Of a DNA stretch of 64,000 nt, positions 840 to 14,135 are shown piece after piece. Source of the DNA: a virus; IMG/VR virus record IMGVR_UViG_3300025929_000016, positions 1-64,000 of that record, one strand, 5' to 3'. Position 1 is the first letter of the stretch. Each line of letters begins with the position of its first letter. The notes under the pieces are model-generated. The model saw nothing but the letters and a program-made list of their open reading frames with translations. It did not search any database and had not been told where the DNA came from. The position numbers and the translations under genes were made by a program.

Positions 840-1325
840 GTGAACCTGTTCTACTTACACGAGGATCCGCAGATCTGCGCCAGCATGCACTGCGACAAGC
901 ATGTGGTCAAGATGATAATCGAGACTGCGCAACTTCTCAGTACGGCAGTTCGCACCATCGAGCCTAACGCACCGAATGTCTACAAGACAAGCCACCTCAA
1001 CCATCCGTCGGCCAGATGGGTACGGGCGAATGCTCAGAACTATCGATGGGCAACGTTGCTGCTCAAGTTCCTAGGTGAGGAATACGAGCGGCGCTACGGC
1101 AAGCGGCATAAGACGATCCGTGAAGTCTATGGTTCCTTTGCCCAATACGAAGGACGCATGCCAGCGGGCGAGTTCTACCCGCCGCCGCAAGTGGTACCCG
1201 AGCAACACAAGCGTGACGATACGGTGGAAGCCTATCGTTCTTATTACCACGACAAGCTGAGCTTCATCTTCTACAAGAAGGGCGGCTGGCCTGAGTGGTT
1301 GGCTCAACCAGAAAGGGAAATCTAA
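840..1325 (+). CDS. conserved phage protein with DKHVVKMIIE motif
   Basis: The 161-residue protein starts at GTG 840, directly after the preceding stop. The N-terminal motif (MHCDKHVVKMIIETAQLL, residues about 17-34) followed by a HLNHPSARWV segment is typical of a phage/cyanophage family that is sometimes annotated as related to pyrimidine-dimer glycosylases. The catalytic N-terminal Thr of T4 endonuclease V is not present, so I do not assert that activity. It is rich in Tyr, His and Trp towards the C-terminus (YYHDKLSFIFYKKGGWPEW). It sits in a short operon with two membrane or secreted peptides downstream. Confidence 0.75.
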   Translation: MNLFYLHEDPQICASMHCDKHVVKMIIETAQLLSTAVRTIEPNAPNVYKTSHLNHPSARWVRANAQNYRWATLLLKFLGEEYERRYGKRHKTIREVYGSFAQYEGRMPAGEFYPPPQVVPEQHKRDDTVEAYRSYYHDKLSFIFYKKGGWPEWLAQPEREI

Positions 1326-5557: not shown

Positions 5558-5736
5558 TGACCTGCCTCCTCGTTCAGGCGCTGTACGCCGTCTTGGTACG
5601 TTTTCAGGTTGATGTCCGTGGACAACTTGATTTCTGCCGAGCCGTACTTGCCGGTGCAGTAATTGATCTTCATGATAAGCTGTTCCATCAGTTCCAGCTT
5701 CTTCTCCAGATACACGGTCTTTTCCATAGCCATCAT
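5554..5736 (-). CDS. small coiled-coil protein, 60 aa
   Basis: A short protein (MMAMEKTVYLEKKLELMEQLIM... GVQRLNEEAGQ) with heptad-like helix at the start. It overlaps the MazG-like gene downstream (ATGA) and the glycosyltransferase upstream, so it is translationally coupled to both. Function unknown. Confidence 0.55.
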   Translation of the reverse strand: MMAMEKTVYLEKKLELMEQLIMKINYCTGKYGSAEIKLSTDINLKTYQDGVQRLNEEAGQ

Positions 5737-6527
5737 GCTTCCTTTCGTTGTGATGATTCATAAGCCTTTTTCCAGGCCACACGGACGTCGGTACGGGTCA
5801 TCCCGTTCCAACTGGTTTTTGTGGATTTCTCCACGACTGTGACAAAGCCAGGATGCAGACCCGCTAACACATGAGCATCCTCCTTCATCAATTCTAGCGT
5901 GCGGTAGTTGCTGCACCCGCCTGCGGCGTTGCTGCTGCCGTGGTCATTAGCGTACTGATAGAACACAGCGTTTCGGTACCCGGCGCGAAGTATCTGGAGT
6001 GTCATATCCATATCTTCTTTGGTCTTGGTGCGGTCGAACCTGAAGCCGTTACTCCGGACTACGTCCAGGTCCAAGCCAAAGATACGCATGCTCCGACCCA
6101 CCAACTTGACGTTCAGCGGTTCGTTCTGATTGCCTTCCCTGCTGCTGATGCCCACCATTGGGTACATCTCGAGAAATTCCAGCATGTCCTGGAACATTTG
6201 TTCGTGTTCCGCTGGCGTCATCTTGTACAGCTTCTTGGCCCCGGTTTCCTCTTTCCGTGTGAAGAACGTCAGATCGTCGTCCATTATGATCAAGAATCGT
6301 GTCAACACGTTCTCGATGAGCCACTGCCGCGTCGCCGTCAAGTTGGTAATCTCGGTAGGCAGCACTAGAAGCTGATTGGTTGAGAAACCCGCCGTCAGGT
6401 ACTGCGGGTATTCCTGTTGCTGGACACTGAACAACACCATATCGCGTATCGACGGCGGCAGGTTGTTGTAGGTCACTTGCTTGTTGATCCGGCCGAGTGT
6501 GTTTATCACTATTGTTACGTTCTGCAT
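5733..6527 (-). CDS. GT-A glycosyltransferase of the phage DNA-modification (TAGT-like) type
   Basis: The 264-residue protein has a GT-A layout. An N-terminal strand TIVINTLGR is followed by the metal/sugar-nucleotide motif IIMDDDLTFF (D83-D85), VGISSREGN (residues 125-132), and a C-terminal catalytic region KEDMDMTLQILRAGY with GSSNAAGGCSNYRT. The last two blocks are what I recall from TET/JBP-associated glycosyltransferases, which glycosylate hydroxymethylated pyrimidines in phage DNA. No TET/JBP dioxygenase is visible, so hydroxymethyl groups would have to come from the thymidylate synthase homologue at 11619. It could instead modify a protein or glycan; placement among nucleotide genes argues for DNA. 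Confidence 0.7.
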   Translation of the reverse strand: MQNVTIVINTLGRINKQVTYNNLPPSIRDMVLFSVQQQEYPQYLTAGFSTNQLLVLPTEITNLTATRQWLIENVLTRFLIIMDDDLTFFTRKEETGAKKLYKMTPAEHEQMFQDMLEFLEMYPMVGISSREGNQNEPLNVKLVGRSMRIFGLDLDVVRSNGFRFDRTKTKEDMDMTLQILRAGYRNAVFYQYANDHGSSNAAGGCSNYRTLELMKEDAHVLAGLHPGFVTVVEKSTKTSWNGMTRTDVRVAWKKAYESSQRKEA

Positions 6528-6649: not shown

Positions 6650-7093
6650 TTAATCTGCGTTCTTCCGCGCTGCAAGATGTTCAAGAGCTTTCCGCTTGGC
6701 GGCTCGTTTGCCGGAACGCGGCGGTCGTACGGGTTCAACCACCGTGCCTTCCCCGCGACGTAGCTCTTCGAGTTGTTCTTTGGTGTATGGTTTGACATAA
6801 GGTACCATTCCTGAATAAATGTTGAATTGTTGACGCGTCCACCCGGTAATGTCCATAATAGACAATATCATACGAGCTGACAGTACTGCATCCCTAGCCC
6901 AGACATGGCTCAATGTTGAGTGGCTTATGTCCAGCAGTTTAGACAATGTTCTGTTGGACACGGTCTGATTTTCTGCTAGGTCAGGATACAGATGTTCTAT
7001 CAGTTTGTTGTGTAACCGCGTCGGTGTGTAAGAAGGACTATTGAGAACTGATTTGTTGTAAGCCTCAATAGTCCTTTTGCGTGGCTGGCTCAT
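6650..7093 (-). CDS. HTH DNA-binding protein, 147 aa
   Basis: The start at 7093 (MSQPRKRT) overlaps the polymerase stop (ATGA). Residues about 45-66 (VSNRTLSKLLDISHSTLSHVW) read as a helix-turn-helix of XRE type, followed by DAVLSARMILSIMDITGW. The tail (residues 110-147) is very basic (PPRSGKRAAKRKALEHLAARK). It may be a phage regulator or polymerase-linked DNA-binding protein. The 122 bases after its stop, before the glycosyltransferase start, hold no convincing gene. Confidence 0.6.
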   Translation of the reverse strand: MSQPRKRTIEAYNKSVLNSPSYTPTRLHNKLIEHLYPDLAENQTVSNRTLSKLLDISHSTLSHVWARDAVLSARMILSIMDITGWTRQQFNIYSGMVPYVKPYTKEQLEELRRGEGTVVEPVRPPRSGKRAAKRKALEHLAARKNAD

Positions 7094-8979
7094 CCTGCTA
7101 ACCCCCAATTGGCCCCACGACCTACGCTAACCAGCACCGGCACGTTGAGCTTATAAGCGTTGATCATGACTTCTTCCATTTCTCGAGCCGCTTCCTCATG
7201 CTGTGGATTACCGGTCTCAATGCTAAATCCAAGTTCATCATGCACCGTAACAAGAGGATAACCCAACACATCGTATATACCACGACGATGACCTTCAACC
7301 ATGGCCCGCTTTGTGATATCTGCGGAGCTGCCTTGTAGAACAGCGTTTGCAGCAGCATGAGTATGAGCGCGCTTAACAGGTCCAAACCGATCGATGGCTT
7401 CCTGTTTATCTTTGAAAGCATATATCTCTCCAGGCTTCTTGTCTTCCTTACGGATGAACTTGGTTGACTCCCAGAAGTCAAAGCGGCGCTTCCGCTTGCC
7501 TATTGTGCGTATATAGCCCCGGTTGCTGGCCCGCTGCATAGCCGCTTCCATGAAGGCTTTGGCGAACGGTGCCTTTTGGTGGTATAGTTCGAAGATCTTC
7601 TTAGCTTCACTCATAGACAGGCCAAGACTAGCAGCGAGCTTAGTAACGCCCATCCCGTACACCAAGCCAAAGTTGATATTCTTTGCCTGCTTCCGAGTGA
7701 CACCTGTGAGTTGCGCACACATTTCATGAAAGTCTGTGGCCGGGTTTTCAATATACTGTTCTCGTGCAACATCTGCAACGCCTCCGGGGAGGGTCGACGC
7801 AAAGTGTACGAGCAATCGGTATTCAATTTGACTGAAATCGTATCGCAACCACTCTTGCCCATGTTCCGGTAAAAACATGCCACGGCACTTTGCGCTGAAG
7901 TACGGATCTTTCTCCGGGTTGGGGATGTTCTGCAAGTTAGGTTTTGATGCACTAAGCCTGCCCGTAACCGTGCCATACTCGTCGCCCTTTAATTGATTAA
8001 ACTGCCCATGCACCCGGCCATTGACGTTGGACTCAACAATGTAGCCCTTGATAAATGTGTTGAGGAAGTGGCTATACTTCTTGGCCTCACCCATGTCGGC
8101 CAGCATAGGGACTTGGTCTACGAACTTCGCTAGGTTCTTGGCGTTAAGGGCCGGGTTTCCTTTAGCAGTTCGAGGATAGACAATTCCAAGTCGGTCAAGC
8201 TCAGCTGCGATCTGCTTACTAGACTTTGGATTAATTCCGGCAAAGTTAGATTGCAGGTCATGGAGCTTGGCTGTCCACTCAATTTCAAGCTGATCTGCAT
8301 ACCCTGCATCAACTCGCACTCCATTGAGATGCATTCGGGCGAGGATAGGGAGTAGATCACTCTCCATTCTCCATAGGTCTGACATTTCATCTGCTTCCAG
8401 CTCCTTTATCTGGCCGTGTATCATTTCCAAGGGTAAAGCGACGTCCTCCTTTGCATACGGTGCAACCACGTGCGCGGGACATTTCCATATGAACGCTTTC
8501 TCTTTGCCCGGCTTGCAACCATAGTTTTGACGGATAAACGCCTCCATCGCTTCATCCTTTTTGCCGCGACCCAACCGCTTTTGAGCGATCGCCTCCAGGG
8601 AGTATTCGAACTGATTTTCATCAAGCAGCGGCTCGGCGACTTGAACGTCCCAGAAAGGCCCGGCAATCTGTATTCCCTCTGTCCACAGATACGCACACTC
8701 GTACTGAAGATTCGCACCCGTTTTAGGTATTTCAGTTGTAAGTTGATCACGCAGATACCTCCATACAGTTGCTCTGTCCAGGTTGCCGCCGCCTTCGTGC
8801 CGCACCGGATAGTACTCAGACCACGTTCTGCCGTCCGGCCACAGTGCGGCCAAAGCCACGCCTACAATGTAGCCGTCTCGCACCGCGCCCATGCCCTTGT
8901 CGATTAGGTCAGGGTCGTAGGTCTCCAAGTCAACGGCGATTAGCTGCGCCTGCTGTAAGTCGGGATAGGTGACTGTCAT
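7090..8979 (-). CDS. family A (PolA-type) replicative DNA polymerase
   Basis: The 629-residue protein has a DnaQ-like 3'-5' exonuclease domain: AVDLETYD (D17, E19), TGANLQYECAYLW, and YAKEDVALPLEM. The polymerase palm and fingers follow with motif A LRYDFSQIEYRLL (D381), motif B RKQAKNINFGLVYG (430-441, Phe437 at the ribose-selecting position) and motif C VTVHDELGF (D581). There is no 5' nuclease domain, as in other phage PolA enzymes. Stop and start overlap with neighbours by ATGA on both sides. It is the obvious replicative polymerase of this phage, acting with the primase at 16100 and helicases nearby. Confidence 0.95.
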   Translation of the reverse strand: MTVTYPDLQQAQLIAVDLETYDPDLIDKGMGAVRDGYIVGVALAALWPDGRTWSEYYPVRHEGGGNLDRATVWRYLRDQLTTEIPKTGANLQYECAYLWTEGIQIAGPFWDVQVAEPLLDENQFEYSLEAIAQKRLGRGKKDEAMEAFIRQNYGCKPGKEKAFIWKCPAHVVAPYAKEDVALPLEMIHGQIKELEADEMSDLWRMESDLLPILARMHLNGVRVDAGYADQLEIEWTAKLHDLQSNFAGINPKSSKQIAAELDRLGIVYPRTAKGNPALNAKNLAKFVDQVPMLADMGEAKKYSHFLNTFIKGYIVESNVNGRVHGQFNQLKGDEYGTVTGRLSASKPNLQNIPNPEKDPYFSAKCRGMFLPEHGQEWLRYDFSQIEYRLLVHFASTLPGGVADVAREQYIENPATDFHEMCAQLTGVTRKQAKNINFGLVYGMGVTKLAASLGLSMSEAKKIFELYHQKAPFAKAFMEAAMQRASNRGYIRTIGKRKRRFDFWESTKFIRKEDKKPGEIYAFKDKQEAIDRFGPVKRAHTHAAANAVLQGSSADITKRAMVEGHRRGIYDVLGYPLVTVHDELGFSIETGNPQHEEAAREMEEVMINAYKLNVPVLVSVGRGANWGLAG

Positions 8980-10687: not shown

Positions 10688-11096
10688 GCTTAATTCCTTG
10701 TTTGGTTTCTTCGTGTTTGATTTGGGCCAGGATGAGATTCTTGGCATATTCCAAGTCGCTGTAGTCTTCCCACATCAAGATAAGATTGCTGACAGCTTGC
10801 TCCCATGGTAGAATCTCTGCTTCTTGGTAATATTTCAGAAGCAGATGTCCATACCCTCTGCAACGTTCTAGCATAGGAGGTCTGTCCAAGTCCAGATAGT
10901 TGCTTGCCAGTCGCTTGTCAATATAGCTAATAGACTTCTGCAAGTCCTGGATACCGTTCTTCTTGTACCAACGGGCAATGTACTTGCTGGCCGCAGATTC
11001 CAGATGTGGGACATCTGCATCATCGCAATAGTCCCAGTGCTGATATCCGCCAGCGTAGTGATTACCACCGACTTGTTCAACGTGTGGCGTAGACAT
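10680..11096 (-). CDS. DUF3310-like protein
   Basis: The start ATG 11096 has a GGAG ribosome site. The 138-residue product shows QVGGNHYAGGYQHWDYCDDA and KYIARWYKKNGIQDLQKSISYIDKRL, the signature of the DUF3310 family, which is widespread in phages and sometimes loosely annotated as nucleotide kinase. No P-loop is present, so I do not assign kinase activity. It sits between the HD phosphohydrolase and the exonuclease. Confidence 0.75.
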   Translation of the reverse strand: MSTPHVEQVGGNHYAGGYQHWDYCDDADVPHLESAASKYIARWYKKNGIQDLQKSISYIDKRLASNYLDLDRPPMLERCRGYGHLLLKYYQEAEILPWEQAVSNLILMWEDYSDLEYAKNLILAQIKHEETKQGIKHE

Positions 11097-11619
11097 ATTG
11101 ATTCTCCAGTCTGTCAAAGATATTGCAAACGACTTGTTCATAGTCGATTGGGCAAGGCAGGGTGCGCAGGAAACCGACGATGTTGTCATACATGTCGATC
11201 ACGTGCTTATTGCCGTACATTAGTTGGTCGATGCAGTAGAAACCAAGCTCCAGGCTGTCGGCCCACTTCAGCAATTGCTGCTCGTCCTTGGTAAGGTCAA
11301 CCAACAGGCCGTGGCGCCGATTAAACGCTTCTTCCATTATCTCCAGCTTCTGCTTGAGCAATGGGCTGCGCCACTTGGTATTGGCGGGCACATCCCCGGT
11401 GCTAGTCTCGGCCAGATCGTGGTAGAGCGCCGCCTTCATCAAGTTCATGCTAGGCTGACCGCCGGTAATTTCCAGCACAAGCATTGCCACGTGGAAGCTA
11501 TGCTCACCTACGGTCTGGTGACCAATGGTAGGCACGGTGTGGCAGCGACGCGTCATCGCAGACTGGCGCAAGTCATACATTTTAGTGTCAACGTAAGAGT
11601 TGAGTTCGGACATGTCCAT
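11077..11619 (-). CDS. HD-domain nucleotide phosphohydrolase (YfbR-like)
   Basis: The 180-residue protein has HTVPTIGHQTVGEHSFHVAML and ALYHDLAETSTGDVP (the HD pair), then KWADSLELGFYC, which supplies the last Asp. This fits 5'-deoxyribonucleotidases of the YfbR type. It starts at ATG 11619, overlapping the stop of the thymidylate synthase homologue by one base (TAATG). Such enzymes are often coupled to modified-base synthesis in phages because they remove canonical dNMPs; that link is inferred here. Confidence 0.8.
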   Translation of the reverse strand: MDMSELNSYVDTKMYDLRQSAMTRRCHTVPTIGHQTVGEHSFHVAMLVLEITGGQPSMNLMKAALYHDLAETSTGDVPANTKWRSPLLKQKLEIMEEAFNRRHGLLVDLTKDEQQLLKWADSLELGFYCIDQLMYGNKHVIDMYDNIVGFLRTLPCPIDYEQVVCNIFDRLENQYVYATR

Positions 11620-12632
11620 TATGCTTTCTCCTTTGCATTGTCCCAACGCTTTTCCAGCCACTGCATCGTTACCAACCGCCAGTCGTCGGCCAGGATATCA
11701 GATGCGTAGTGCTTCGTTGCTTCCCGCTGCGGTTCCAACTTGTTCTTACGCCATGTGACATGGCTATTGAATGTGTTCCACATAGGGTCAACCACATCGC
11801 AGAAGAATGCCGACTTGTAATGCGTGGTTTCGTGACCGGTATCCCAGCGGAAGAAGAACTCTGCCAAGTCCTCATCCCAATGCGGGTCGGCACAGCCCAT
11901 AGGGAAGGCTCGCACACCATCCTCGGCATACGGGTCTTGGAAGTCCCGGTGCTTGACAATGTCAACCCATTGCTGATTGAGGTAGCAGTGGAAGCTGTCC
12001 GTGGTTTGGTGATAATGGCCGAGGGCGACACCGAGCTTGTCAGCGATGTATTCCTGGAGCATGCTGAACTGGCAGACGTTGGTGCCGGTGAGACCCCAGA
12101 TGAAGTCATTGCTGCGATTGATCACGTGCATGTTCAACCGGCCCTGCCGCACCTTGAGCATGACCATCAGGTTGCAGGGTGTGTCCTTGCCTTCGTACCA
12201 CAGGTCATTGCGGTCACGAATGTTGATAACCACCTGCCGGCTGTCCGGGTCTTTTTGCAGACGCTCGATTGCCTTCTGGATCTGGTCATCTCCCATACCC
12301 GGCAGACCGCGCATCCGGCGACCGTAGGCACCGTAATAGGTGGAGCCGTTGTCGCTGTACTTCGCCATGTTGGGCACAAGGTATTGCAAGAAGTCGACGT
12401 CTTCCCGGCCTGCAAGAATCCACAGCGGCTCGAAGAAGTGTAGGAACGGGTTGATGTCCCGTTGTTTGTTGAACAACACGCGCTGGCGCGGGTCTTTGTA
12501 GCAGACGCTGACCGGCTGGTCGATTTCTAGCGTATCGCCGTGCTGACTGGCCTGCTTGACGCCTTGGTTGAGCAACAGATTGATGCCAATGGAATAAACT
12601 TCATTGACGTTGTTTGCCTTGATTGTGATCAT
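11619..12632 (-). CDS. thymidylate synthase family protein (possibly dUMP hydroxymethylase)
   Basis: The 337-residue protein has the family core: catalytic Cys153 in KDTPCNLMVML, the phosphate-binding INRSNDFIWG (R173, S174), GTNVCQFSML with Asn185 at the position that selects uracil over cytosine, and TTDSFHCYL (His215, Tyr217). Family members methylate or hydroxymethylate dUMP with methylene-tetrahydrofolate. The immediate neighbours (HD phosphohydrolase, thymine pyrophosphorylase) favour hydroxymethyl-dUMP as product, but sequence reading alone cannot separate the two reactions. ATGA overlap with the small upstream gene. Confidence 0.85.
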   Translation of the reverse strand: MITIKANNVNEVYSIGINLLLNQGVKQASQHGDTLEIDQPVSVCYKDPRQRVLFNKQRDINPFLHFFEPLWILAGREDVDFLQYLVPNMAKYSDNGSTYYGAYGRRMRGLPGMGDDQIQKAIERLQKDPDSRQVVINIRDRNDLWYEGKDTPCNLMVMLKVRQGRLNMHVINRSNDFIWGLTGTNVCQFSMLQEYIADKLGVALGHYHQTTDSFHCYLNQQWVDIVKHRDFQDPYAEDGVRAFPMGCADPHWDEDLAEFFFRWDTGHETTHYKSAFFCDVVDPMWNTFNSHVTWRKNKLEPQREATKHYASDILADDWRLVTMQWLEKRWDNAKEKA

Positions 12633-12832: not shown

Positions 12833-12850
12833 ATTATCCTCTGTATAAGT
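12833..12850 (-). promoter_or_regulatory. CTATACAG-type leader
   Basis: On the minus strand ACTTATACAGAGGATAAT runs into ATG 12832. AGGA is the ribosome site. The leader abuts the stop of the pyrophosphorylase gene. Confidence 0.5.
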
Positions 12851-13734
12851 TACTTGCCTGGATACCCACTACGAGGCTTACCTTCCCCGAGGCGGACTCT
12901 GCTATGTTTGTCGAATTCGCATAGACAGTTCTGTACGTCATGCACCGGTAATTCTATTCCTGTGCGCTGGCGTATTGCACATTGTAGCACAAGAAGTTCC
13001 TCTTGTACACGGTCCGTTTTGATGCTCGCTTCCAGTGGCCGGGCGAAGTAACGATTCAACCCTCGCCTGCTGCCCGGCCCTATAGGTGCCCAAGTCATCC
13101 AGTCGCTGGCGTTGGCGAGGACGGAAGTGTGCTTCAAGTCAGCTACAACCTGACCGGCCATGAAGCTCCCCATGCCGTCGAACCGTGTGAGTTCGTTGTG
13201 GAAATGGTATAACGATTCCCAAGGTAGACTGTCCATGAAAGCCTTGCTGTCATGTATCGGCTTCACCACACGGTCAAGTATATAGTCAATCTTGTCCATG
13301 CTATGACCGTTGGTGCTCACCAGATAAGCGCCTGTCCAGATCTTGGCTCCTTTGGCACGTGCTTCTTTTAACGCCAAACGGATGGCATGAATATACCCTT
13401 CAAATGAATGCACTTCGCACTCAGGGAACCCAATCAATTGCAACGTGCTTTCCCTGTTGAACAACCGGGCGATGACCATGGCCGTAACCATGTTCGGGTG
13501 CGTATCATACGGGTCACGCCAGTTGCGCTTGATCCACTTGGTGACCTTGTCGTCTTCCCGGCGCACGTTGCAGAAGCGATATTGCTGGATGATAGGGTCG
13601 TGCGTCCACGGCGCAGGGAAGCCACTTTCCCTGCCTACCCGCGCCCGTTCGCGCTCTATGATCCAATGGTAAAAGAAAGCCTGATGGTTCTCCAGGCCAG
13701 CGTAGTCAACGAGTGGTGTGAGTGGTATGTTCAT
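12850..13734 (-). CDS. putative alpha-glutamyl/putrescinyl thymine pyrophosphorylase (aGPT-PPlase)
   Basis: The 294-residue protein has WIIERERARVGRESG (residues 24-38) then PWTHDPIIQQYRFCNVRRED (43-61) and DKVTKWI, the diagnostic block of the aGPT-PPlase family, which has a DNA-glycosylase-like helical fold. Later come YLVSTNGHSMDKIDYI, FDGMGSFMAGQVVADLKH (helix-hairpin-helix-like) and WAPIGPGSRRGLN. In phages such as phiW-14 and ViI these enzymes replace the pyrophosphate on 5-pyrophosphoryl-oxymethyl-uracil in DNA by an amine or amino acid. The matching hmdU DNA kinase is not visible in this window. Confidence 0.8.
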   Translation of the reverse strand: MNIPLTPLVDYAGLENHQAFFYHWIIERERARVGRESGFPAPWTHDPIIQQYRFCNVRREDDKVTKWIKRNWRDPYDTHPNMVTAMVIARLFNRESTLQLIGFPECEVHSFEGYIHAIRLALKEARAKGAKIWTGAYLVSTNGHSMDKIDYILDRVVKPIHDSKAFMDSLPWESLYHFHNELTRFDGMGSFMAGQVVADLKHTSVLANASDWMTWAPIGPGSRRGLNRYFARPLEASIKTDRVQEELLVLQCAIRQRTGIELPVHDVQNCLCEFDKHSRVRLGEGKPRSGYPGK

Positions 13735-14135
13735 AAGTCCTCAGTAACGTGTTTCCACGAAATTTTCCTTTTTATTTGGCTCACAGTGGACTGGGAAACG
13801 CCAAAGTTATCGGCAATTCTTTGCTGCGAACCATATGCTTGGTAAATCAACCTCACCAATTCCTCGTCTATAATCGCATTCAGAACCTGTGAGCCTCTGG
13901 GTTGCCTTCCCTTATTAACCTTATCTTTCATATTATCTTCATGCGTACCTAAGAATAAGTGATCAATGTTATAGCAGTTTCGAACATCACACTTATGCAA
14001 CACCTGAAGACCTTGCGGTATTGGACCATGGTGCTTCTCCCACTCAAGACGATGGACTTTGAATATTTTTCGGTTTATGGTGCGTTGTCCATAGCCGTGG
14101 CTTGATGCTCCTTCCCACAGTATGCATGGTGTCAT
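13731..14135 (-). CDS. HNH homing-type endonuclease with C-terminal HTH
   Basis: The N-terminal half is an HNH_3-type nuclease: KVHRLEWEKHHGPIPQGLQV, LHKCDVRNCYNIDHLFLGT and HEDNMKDKVNKGR. The C-terminal half has a helix-turn-helix (QRIADNFGVSQSTVSQIKR). This is the usual build of free-standing phage homing endonucleases. It overlaps the pyrophosphorylase start by ATGA, and it interrupts the modification/helicase gene order, which suggests insertion by homing. Confidence 0.85.
   Translation of the reverse strand: MTPCILWEGASSHGYGQRTINRKIFKVHRLEWEKHHGPIPQGLQVLHKCDVRNCYNIDHLFLGTHEDNMKDKVNKGRQPRGSQVLNAIIDEELVRLIYQAYGSQQRIADNFGVSQSTVSQIKRKISWKHVTEDL

Follow-up and report, generated by a model that had tools for sequence, protein, structure and literature searches.

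Can a virus glycosylate the thymine of its DNA with no oxygenase to oxidise the base? The question is raised by one gene in the window, by which we mean the whole 64,000-nucleotide stretch that was analysed (bases 1-64000 of a virus record; the full record has 69,251 bases). The record is linear and end repeats are absent, so it may be incomplete. A first-pass annotation had described the gene as a TAGT-like glycosyltransferase without the TET/JBP partner that such enzymes accompany in phages, and had proposed a route to a glycosylated base from 5-hydroxymethyl-dU (hmdU) made at the nucleotide level. Our analysis indicates that the phage DNA probably carries glycosylated hmdU, and that the window encodes a probable thymine-glycosylation cassette without an oxygenase. 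The genes concerned are listed in Table 1.

Table 1. Genes and other open reading frames of the window considered in the analysis.
Feature	Coordinates	Strand	Size and evidence
Pyr_excise (pyrimidine dimer DNA glycosylase) candidate, weak match	840..1325	+	E = 0.0018, under cut-off
TAGT-family (PF20691) GT-A glycosyltransferase	5733..6527	-	264 aa, ATG start; Pfam, PHROG, AlphaFold2, conserved residues
Family A DNA polymerase	7090..8979	-	Pfam DNA_pol_A, E = 1.6e-64
YfbR-like HD 5'-deoxynucleotidase	11077..11661	-	Pfam YfbR-like, E = 1e-13
Thymidylate synthase family protein, predicted dUMP-hydroxymethylase type	11619..12632	-	337 aa; Pfam PF00303, E = 7e-20; PHROG 5131, E = 2.5e-94
Stand-alone HMUDK_hel (PF18723, aGPT-Pplase1 type)	12850..13734	-	294 aa; Pfam, E = 4e-44
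HNH endonuclease-type ORF	13731..14135	-	

Across the glycosyltransferase gene the minus strand is open, and the plus strand contains 6 stops. The minus-strand translation contains all three motifs on which the first-pass annotation had relied (MDDDLTFF, VGISSREGN and NAAGGCSNYRT). The TAGT profile search that it had proposed gave a match of 70.2 bits to Pfam PF20691 (cut-off 27.5, E = 3e-19), and residues 2-262 were matched by PHROG 842 (E = 1e-46), a family named beta-glucosyl-HMC-alpha-glucosyltransferase. The sequence does not fall in a capsule or protein glycosyltransferase family; the runner-up in Pfam, Glyco_trans_2_3, reached 15.6 bits, under its 27-bit cut-off. The protein retains residues that are invariant over 40 relatives (e.g., R67, D83, D84, R145, D172, G203, G204, R209 and W252), and within the acidic metal-binding motif D83-D84 is invariant and D85 almost invariant. 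The AlphaFold2 model (pLDDT 94.4) has a GT-A fold, in agreement with the published modelling of T6 TAGT (PMC13216743). Its best structural matches are GT-A/GT2-type enzymes, with GalNAc-transferases at the top (Z 14.7) and TarP also among them; no relative with a solved structure was found by sequence. The gene is real and a member of the TAGT family, and its product is predicted to transfer a sugar onto 5-hydroxymethyl-dU in DNA.

A screen of the whole record for Tet_JBP (PF12851), of the kind that the first-pass annotation had proposed, gave no match within a record that may be incomplete. A hidden TET/JBP partner was rejected because of this absence. The P-loop 5-hmdU DNA kinase (PF18748) and the amino acid:DNA transferase (ADDT, PF18724) also had no match in the whole record, and alpha-GT (PF11440) and beta-GT (PF09198) had none among the ORFs scanned. 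The premise that the TAGT family is tied to TET/JBP did not hold. The T2/T6 TAGT lies beside a dCMP hydroxymethylase, and TAGT occurs alone in 288 of the 753 phage genomes that have a glucosyltransferase homologue (PMC13216743).

The thymidylate synthase (TS) homologue reported at first pass is present, and its sequence is that of a dUMP-hydroxymethylase-type enzyme predicted to make hm-dUMP. Among solved structures the nearest is that of the CMP hydroxymethylase MilA (E = 1e-27); the best thymidylate synthase follows at 3e-13. In the TS family, the residue at the position of E. coli TS N177 governs the choice between uracil and cytosine. We aligned 68 sequences, near-identical loci among them, with E. 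coli TS and found Asn at this position in 67/68, the exception being T4 gp42. The Asn-bearing rows include SPO1 gp29 (annotated as a dUMP hydroxymethylase), M6, Sonora, Pam3 and all 61 distinct TAGT-linked enzymes. T4 and T6 gp42 read RNDYAW there, where the Asp was assigned by inspection and the program had set a gap beside it. The catalytic Cys is followed by Asn (PCN, not PCH), including in the window enzyme, SPO1 gp29 and phage M6, and by Thr in L058 and T4; Trp80 of TS is lost in all rows but T4. The window enzyme keeps the catalytic Cys and has lost the TS-specific Trp80 and His147. Cytosine specificity is disfavoured by the Asn at the base-selecting position.

The five genes of interest are all on the minus strand, in the order HMUDK_hel - hydroxymethylase - HD, polymerase, then TAGT. 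The HD nucleotidase gene overlaps the hydroxymethylase gene, and the two genes stand in this order at most TAGT loci too, as well as in M6 and Pam3. The gene that had been called a pyrophosphorylase exists, but it is now assigned to HMUDK_hel, the helical protein that partners the 5-hmdU-DNA kinase; the PF18723 family was formerly named alpha-glutamyl/putrescinyl-thymine pyrophosphorylase clade 1. In M6-type phages HMUDK_hel acts with a P-loop 5-hmdU-DNA kinase and an amino-acid transferase. The HNH-type ORF, possibly a homing gene, lies directly upstream of HMUDK_hel, at the position of the kinase gene in M6-type phages. A short protein resembling the Pyr_excise candidate recurs near many cassettes (16 loci).

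We then examined how widely this arrangement occurs. The window TAGT protein was matched by 4 records (3 phages) in a phage collection, and an alignment search in viral contigs gave 130 relatives, of which 80 were kept. The gene set recurs in >100 viral sequences. By profile searches the typical locus, seen in many, is a same-strand TAGT - HMUDK_hel - hydroxymethylase - HD operon, and a Methylobacter-binned contig has the four consecutively. TAGT and HMUDK_hel shared a strand at all 57 non-redundant TAGT loci and were at most 3 kb apart at 55; the gap of 6.3 kb in the window is the widest of the 57. The combination had been thought new at first pass, but it is a widespread operon, and the co-location has been noted once, in pelagiphages (PMC9599517). 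When 48 TAGT records were searched whole, HMUDK_hel was found in 40, TET/JBP in 3 and the kinase in none, shares that are not valid for all TAGTs because the seed alignment was drawn from this TAGT clade. HMUDK_hel and TS-family genes are both missing from the 3 records with TET/JBP.

The cassette is also carried by Brevibacterium phage LuckyBarnes, cultured on Brevibacterium iodinum. The published description of this phage predicts a dCMP hydroxymethylase and lists two glycosyltransferases (PMC6588365), a reading that is changed by the presence of an HMUDK_hel gene and the uracil-type Asn. Two tandem TAGT genes lie between its hydroxymethylase and HMUDK_hel genes (L010:11157-12768), perhaps for a disaccharide.

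To avoid bias from the TAGT seed, a second survey began at HMUDK_hel, with M6 as the first sequence. Among the 80 viral HMUDK_hel loci obtained, 40 had the kinase (32 of them also ADDT), 32 had TAGT, 8 had neither and 0 had both. Whole records (42 of these loci and control records) contained TAGT in 17 cases, the kinase in 20 and both in 0. For all 163 fetched HMUDK_hel loci, near-copies included, the counts were 107 with TAGT, 45 with the kinase, 11 with neither and 0 with both, although the zero is not a count of independent events, since partner labels are clustered on the HMUDK_hel tree. At 80% identity the non-redundant set held 57 TAGT, 29 kinase and 5 loci with neither. The tree requires at least two partner changes, and L144 (TAGT type) falls among kinase-type rows; to judge from this tree, the pattern is not one single split either. 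The kinase was absent from 40/40 and 17/17 whole records with TAGT and HMUDK_hel in the two sets, and ADDT from 44/44 TAGT records tested. Small P-loop ORFs were found near HMUDK_hel at 26/29 kinase-type loci vs. 2/57 TAGT-type loci (both weak), so a diverged kinase is unlikely at the latter. It was rejected for the window as well, where the sole P-loop ORF, a UvrD-type helicase, is not of the small kind.

Other enzymes were found beside HMUDK_hel or TAGT. At two loci (L150:8764-10011 and L158:8731-9990) a group 1 GT4-family (GT-B) glycosyltransferase lies directly upstream of HMUDK_hel, without TAGT or kinase. L123, also with neither partner, has a weak Glyco_transf_4 match and a weak PIG-L (deacetylase) match. 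At another locus with neither (L146:596-2414), a PIG-L deacetylase-like protein, HMUDK_hel and an APS-kinase-like P-loop protein are in a row, perhaps for another hmdU modification. A MobA-like/sugar-type nucleotidyltransferase is present between TAGT and HMUDK_hel in L071 (11532-12266), L076, L089 and L003. A radical SAM/SPASM enzyme adjoins TAGT in L032, L045, L046, L050, L061, L072, L097, L100 and L144, and in L073 (3324-5063) such a domain is fused to TAGT. This long ORF consists of TAGT and the radical SAM domain, and no fusion of HMUDK_hel with TAGT was seen among the loci. In the window, no counterpart of these nucleotidyltransferase or radical SAM genes was found. The radical SAM/SPASM enzymes suggest more chemistry on the sugar or the base, and the added nucleotidyltransferase, GT4 and radical SAM genes, whose functions we infer, point to sugar chemistry.

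What could HMUDK_hel do beside a glycosyltransferase? Its AlphaFold2 model has a pLDDT of 92.8. Foldseek gave no significant match for this model (E above 0.3), with DNA glycosylases at the top of the list. A second aligner placed the PaMx11 5-PmdU glycinyltransferase (PDB 8z2n) first with Z 11.5, followed by HhH DNA glycosylases and queuosine salvage enzymes (Z 9-10). These matches are modest (Z 9-11.5 at 4-6 A), and the likeness of fold is suggestive only because helical proteins easily give such Z values. Conservation of at least 90% is reached at 21 HMUDK_hel positions whether the partner is the kinase or TAGT; 23 positions are conserved with the kinase only, and none with TAGT only. This conservation fits a common core for handling hmdU-DNA from which kinase-specific contacts have been lost. 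HMUDK_hel is predicted to be the partner that recognises hmdU-DNA or presents the base, a role that we regard as likely, somewhat less so than the glycosylated product itself. One locus (ctUhy936, L009:19998-22296, MW202897.1) has TAGT, hydroxymethylase and HD without HMUDK_hel, so HMUDK_hel may not always be needed for the sugar step.

A TAGT, no TET/JBP and a nucleotide-level hydroxymethylase together would give a route to glycosylated thymine. These three elements of the route proposed at first pass are supported, and from the genes and their sequences we infer the rest, namely the catalytic specificities, the role of HMUDK_hel in presenting the base, and the sugar and product. The hydroxymethylase would convert dUMP to 5-hydroxymethyl-dUMP, and the HD nucleotidase probably lowers competing dTMP/dTTP. 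The phage family A polymerase would incorporate hmdUTP, so that hmdU replaces part or all of T. After replication, HMUDK_hel, with its DNA-glycosylase-like fold, would bind and present hmdU in the DNA, and TAGT would move a sugar from a sugar nucleotide onto the hydroxymethyl group. The product would be 5-glycosyloxymethyl-dU, a base-J-like nucleoside made without a TET/JBP oxygenase. In related phages HMUDK_hel pairs instead with the P-loop kinase that phosphorylates hmdU.

Other explanations must be weighed against this one. The phage might follow the standard hypermodification of M6 and ViI, in which hmdU is phosphorylated by the DNA kinase and then receives an amino group, with TAGT acting elsewhere. 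M6, Pam3 and Sonora do encode close relatives of the hydroxymethylase, HMUDK_hel and HD proteins. However, the kinase and ADDT are both missing from this record and from the TAGT records surveyed, and the P-loop counts argue against a diverged kinase, which makes this explanation very improbable. We give just as little credence to a cytosine route like that of T2/T6, in which the TS-family enzyme would make hm-dCMP and TAGT would glycosylate hmC DNA. It could be supported by the T6 TAGT gene, which adjoins a dCMP hydroxymethylase gene with no TET (PMC13216743), by the HMC-related name of the PHROG family and by the annotation of LuckyBarnes (PMC6588365). However, all TAGT-linked hydroxymethylases examined have Asn and not Asp at the base-selecting position and PCN (PCT in one) after the manner of the SPO1 and M6 dUMP enzymes; they also sit with HMUDK_hel, known from thymidine pathways, and the T6 TAGT is far from the window clade (branch 3.45).

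It is slightly less probable still that the substrate of TAGT is not DNA but a polysaccharide, protein or small molecule. The fold of TAGT is like those of TarP, GalNAc-transferases and other GT2/GT27-type enzymes, and surface-modifying glycosyltransferases occur in phages, but the sequence assigns the protein to TAGT and not to a capsule or protein family, and TAGT lies in an operon with DNA-base genes across dozens of phages. More weight, though still well on the unlikely side, belongs to the idea that HMUDK_hel is itself an enzyme (e.g., a base-flipping transferase or glycosylase), with TAGT acting on its product and a final base beyond a simple glycoside. The glycinyltransferase and DNA glycosylases among its structural matches, polar residues (e.g., D199, D211, C272, E273 and K276) conserved with both partner types, and the radical SAM or PIG-L genes added at some loci are in line with this idea. 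However, Pfam calls HMUDK_hel a domain of the 5-hmdU DNA kinase. That these residues persist beside partners of different chemistry is also easier to reconcile with a role in handling the substrate than with a single fixed reaction.

Glycosylation of hmdU in DNA by TAGT is therefore the explanation that we prefer. If it is true, glycosylated thymine can arise in a second way, without an oxygenase, and thymine hypermodification has a new branch at hmdU, which is either phosphorylated or glycosylated. The helical "pyrophosphorylase/kinase" domain would gain a testable role apart from phosphorylation. In phages with the cassette, glycosylated thymine should have consequences for restriction, CRISPR and sequencing, and the cassette enzymes could label hmdU in DNA. 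A broader proposal, to which we give about an even chance, is that HMUDK_hel does not belong to the kinase in particular but serves generally to read and present 5-hmdU in DNA, and can be combined with exchangeable enzymes: the kinase, TAGT of the GT-A type, a glycosyltransferase of the GT-B type and possibly more. The TAGT version would then serve a large phage group, most of it uncultured, to make a base-J-like thymine from the nucleotide pool, and some lineages would elaborate it through radical SAM enzymes.

In the literature covered, with several founding papers (Iyer 2013, Lee 2018/2022, Pyle 2024 and Wen 2024) outside it, we found no report of a swap of kinase for glycosyltransferase. 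As far as this literature shows, three points are new: TAGT and the 5-hmdU kinase exclude each other as partners of HMUDK_hel, uracil-type specificity runs through the whole set, and GT4 enzymes stand in for TAGT in some cases. A precedent is the pelagiphage cluster of TS, aGPT-Pplase1, 5'-deoxynucleotidase and beta-glucosyl-HMC-alpha-GT, apparently the same four families; that paper regarded the glycosyltransferase as something added to an M6-type system, and its accessible part mentions no missing kinase and proposes no glycosyl-hmdU product (PMC9599517).

Among known systems, the order in M6 is ADDT - threonine-dehydratase-annotated gene - photolyase-annotated gene - kinase - HMUDK_hel - hydroxymethylase - HD - polymerase. 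The threonine-dehydratase-annotated gene is of the PLP type and the photolyase-annotated gene of the radical-SAM type. M6 DNA contains aminoethyl-dU (PMC6449724). The hydroxymethylase, HMUDK_hel and HD of the window recur in M6, ViI and PaMx11, arranged in the same order close to PolA and with hmdU as the shared intermediate (PMC6449724). In contrast to these phages, the window lacks the P-loop kinase and ADDT and has a glycosyltransferase in their place; it also lacks a radical SAM gene of the kind that adjoins TAGT elsewhere.

In the gentiobiosyl-hmC system of T2/T6, TAGT likewise lies beside a TS-family hydroxymethylase with no TET (PMC13216743). That pathway consists of dCMP hydroxymethylase, alpha-GT and TAGT, and the T6 TAGT adds the second glucose to glucosyl-hmC, whereas the precursor in the window is predicted to be hmdU, HMUDK_hel is nearby, and the hydroxymethylase has Asn and not the dCMP-type Asp. 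The phage TET/JBP-TAGT systems (e.g., DLP_6) have the TAGT family in common with the window, but DLP_6 and two further genomes (G006 and G027) carry TET/JBP without HMUDK_hel and TS-family genes. SP-15 has sugar-bearing thymine derivatives in its DNA and YerA41 probably has a sugar-bearing base; the SP-15 base is 4,5-dihydroxypentyl and comes from another gene cluster, and the YerA41 structure is unsolved. In base J of kinetoplastids (JBP1/2 and JGT), T is oxidised in the DNA, whereas in the window no JBP oxygenase was matched and hmdU formation is predicted at the nucleotide level; the predicted type of product, a glycosylated 5-hydroxymethyluracil, is the same in both.
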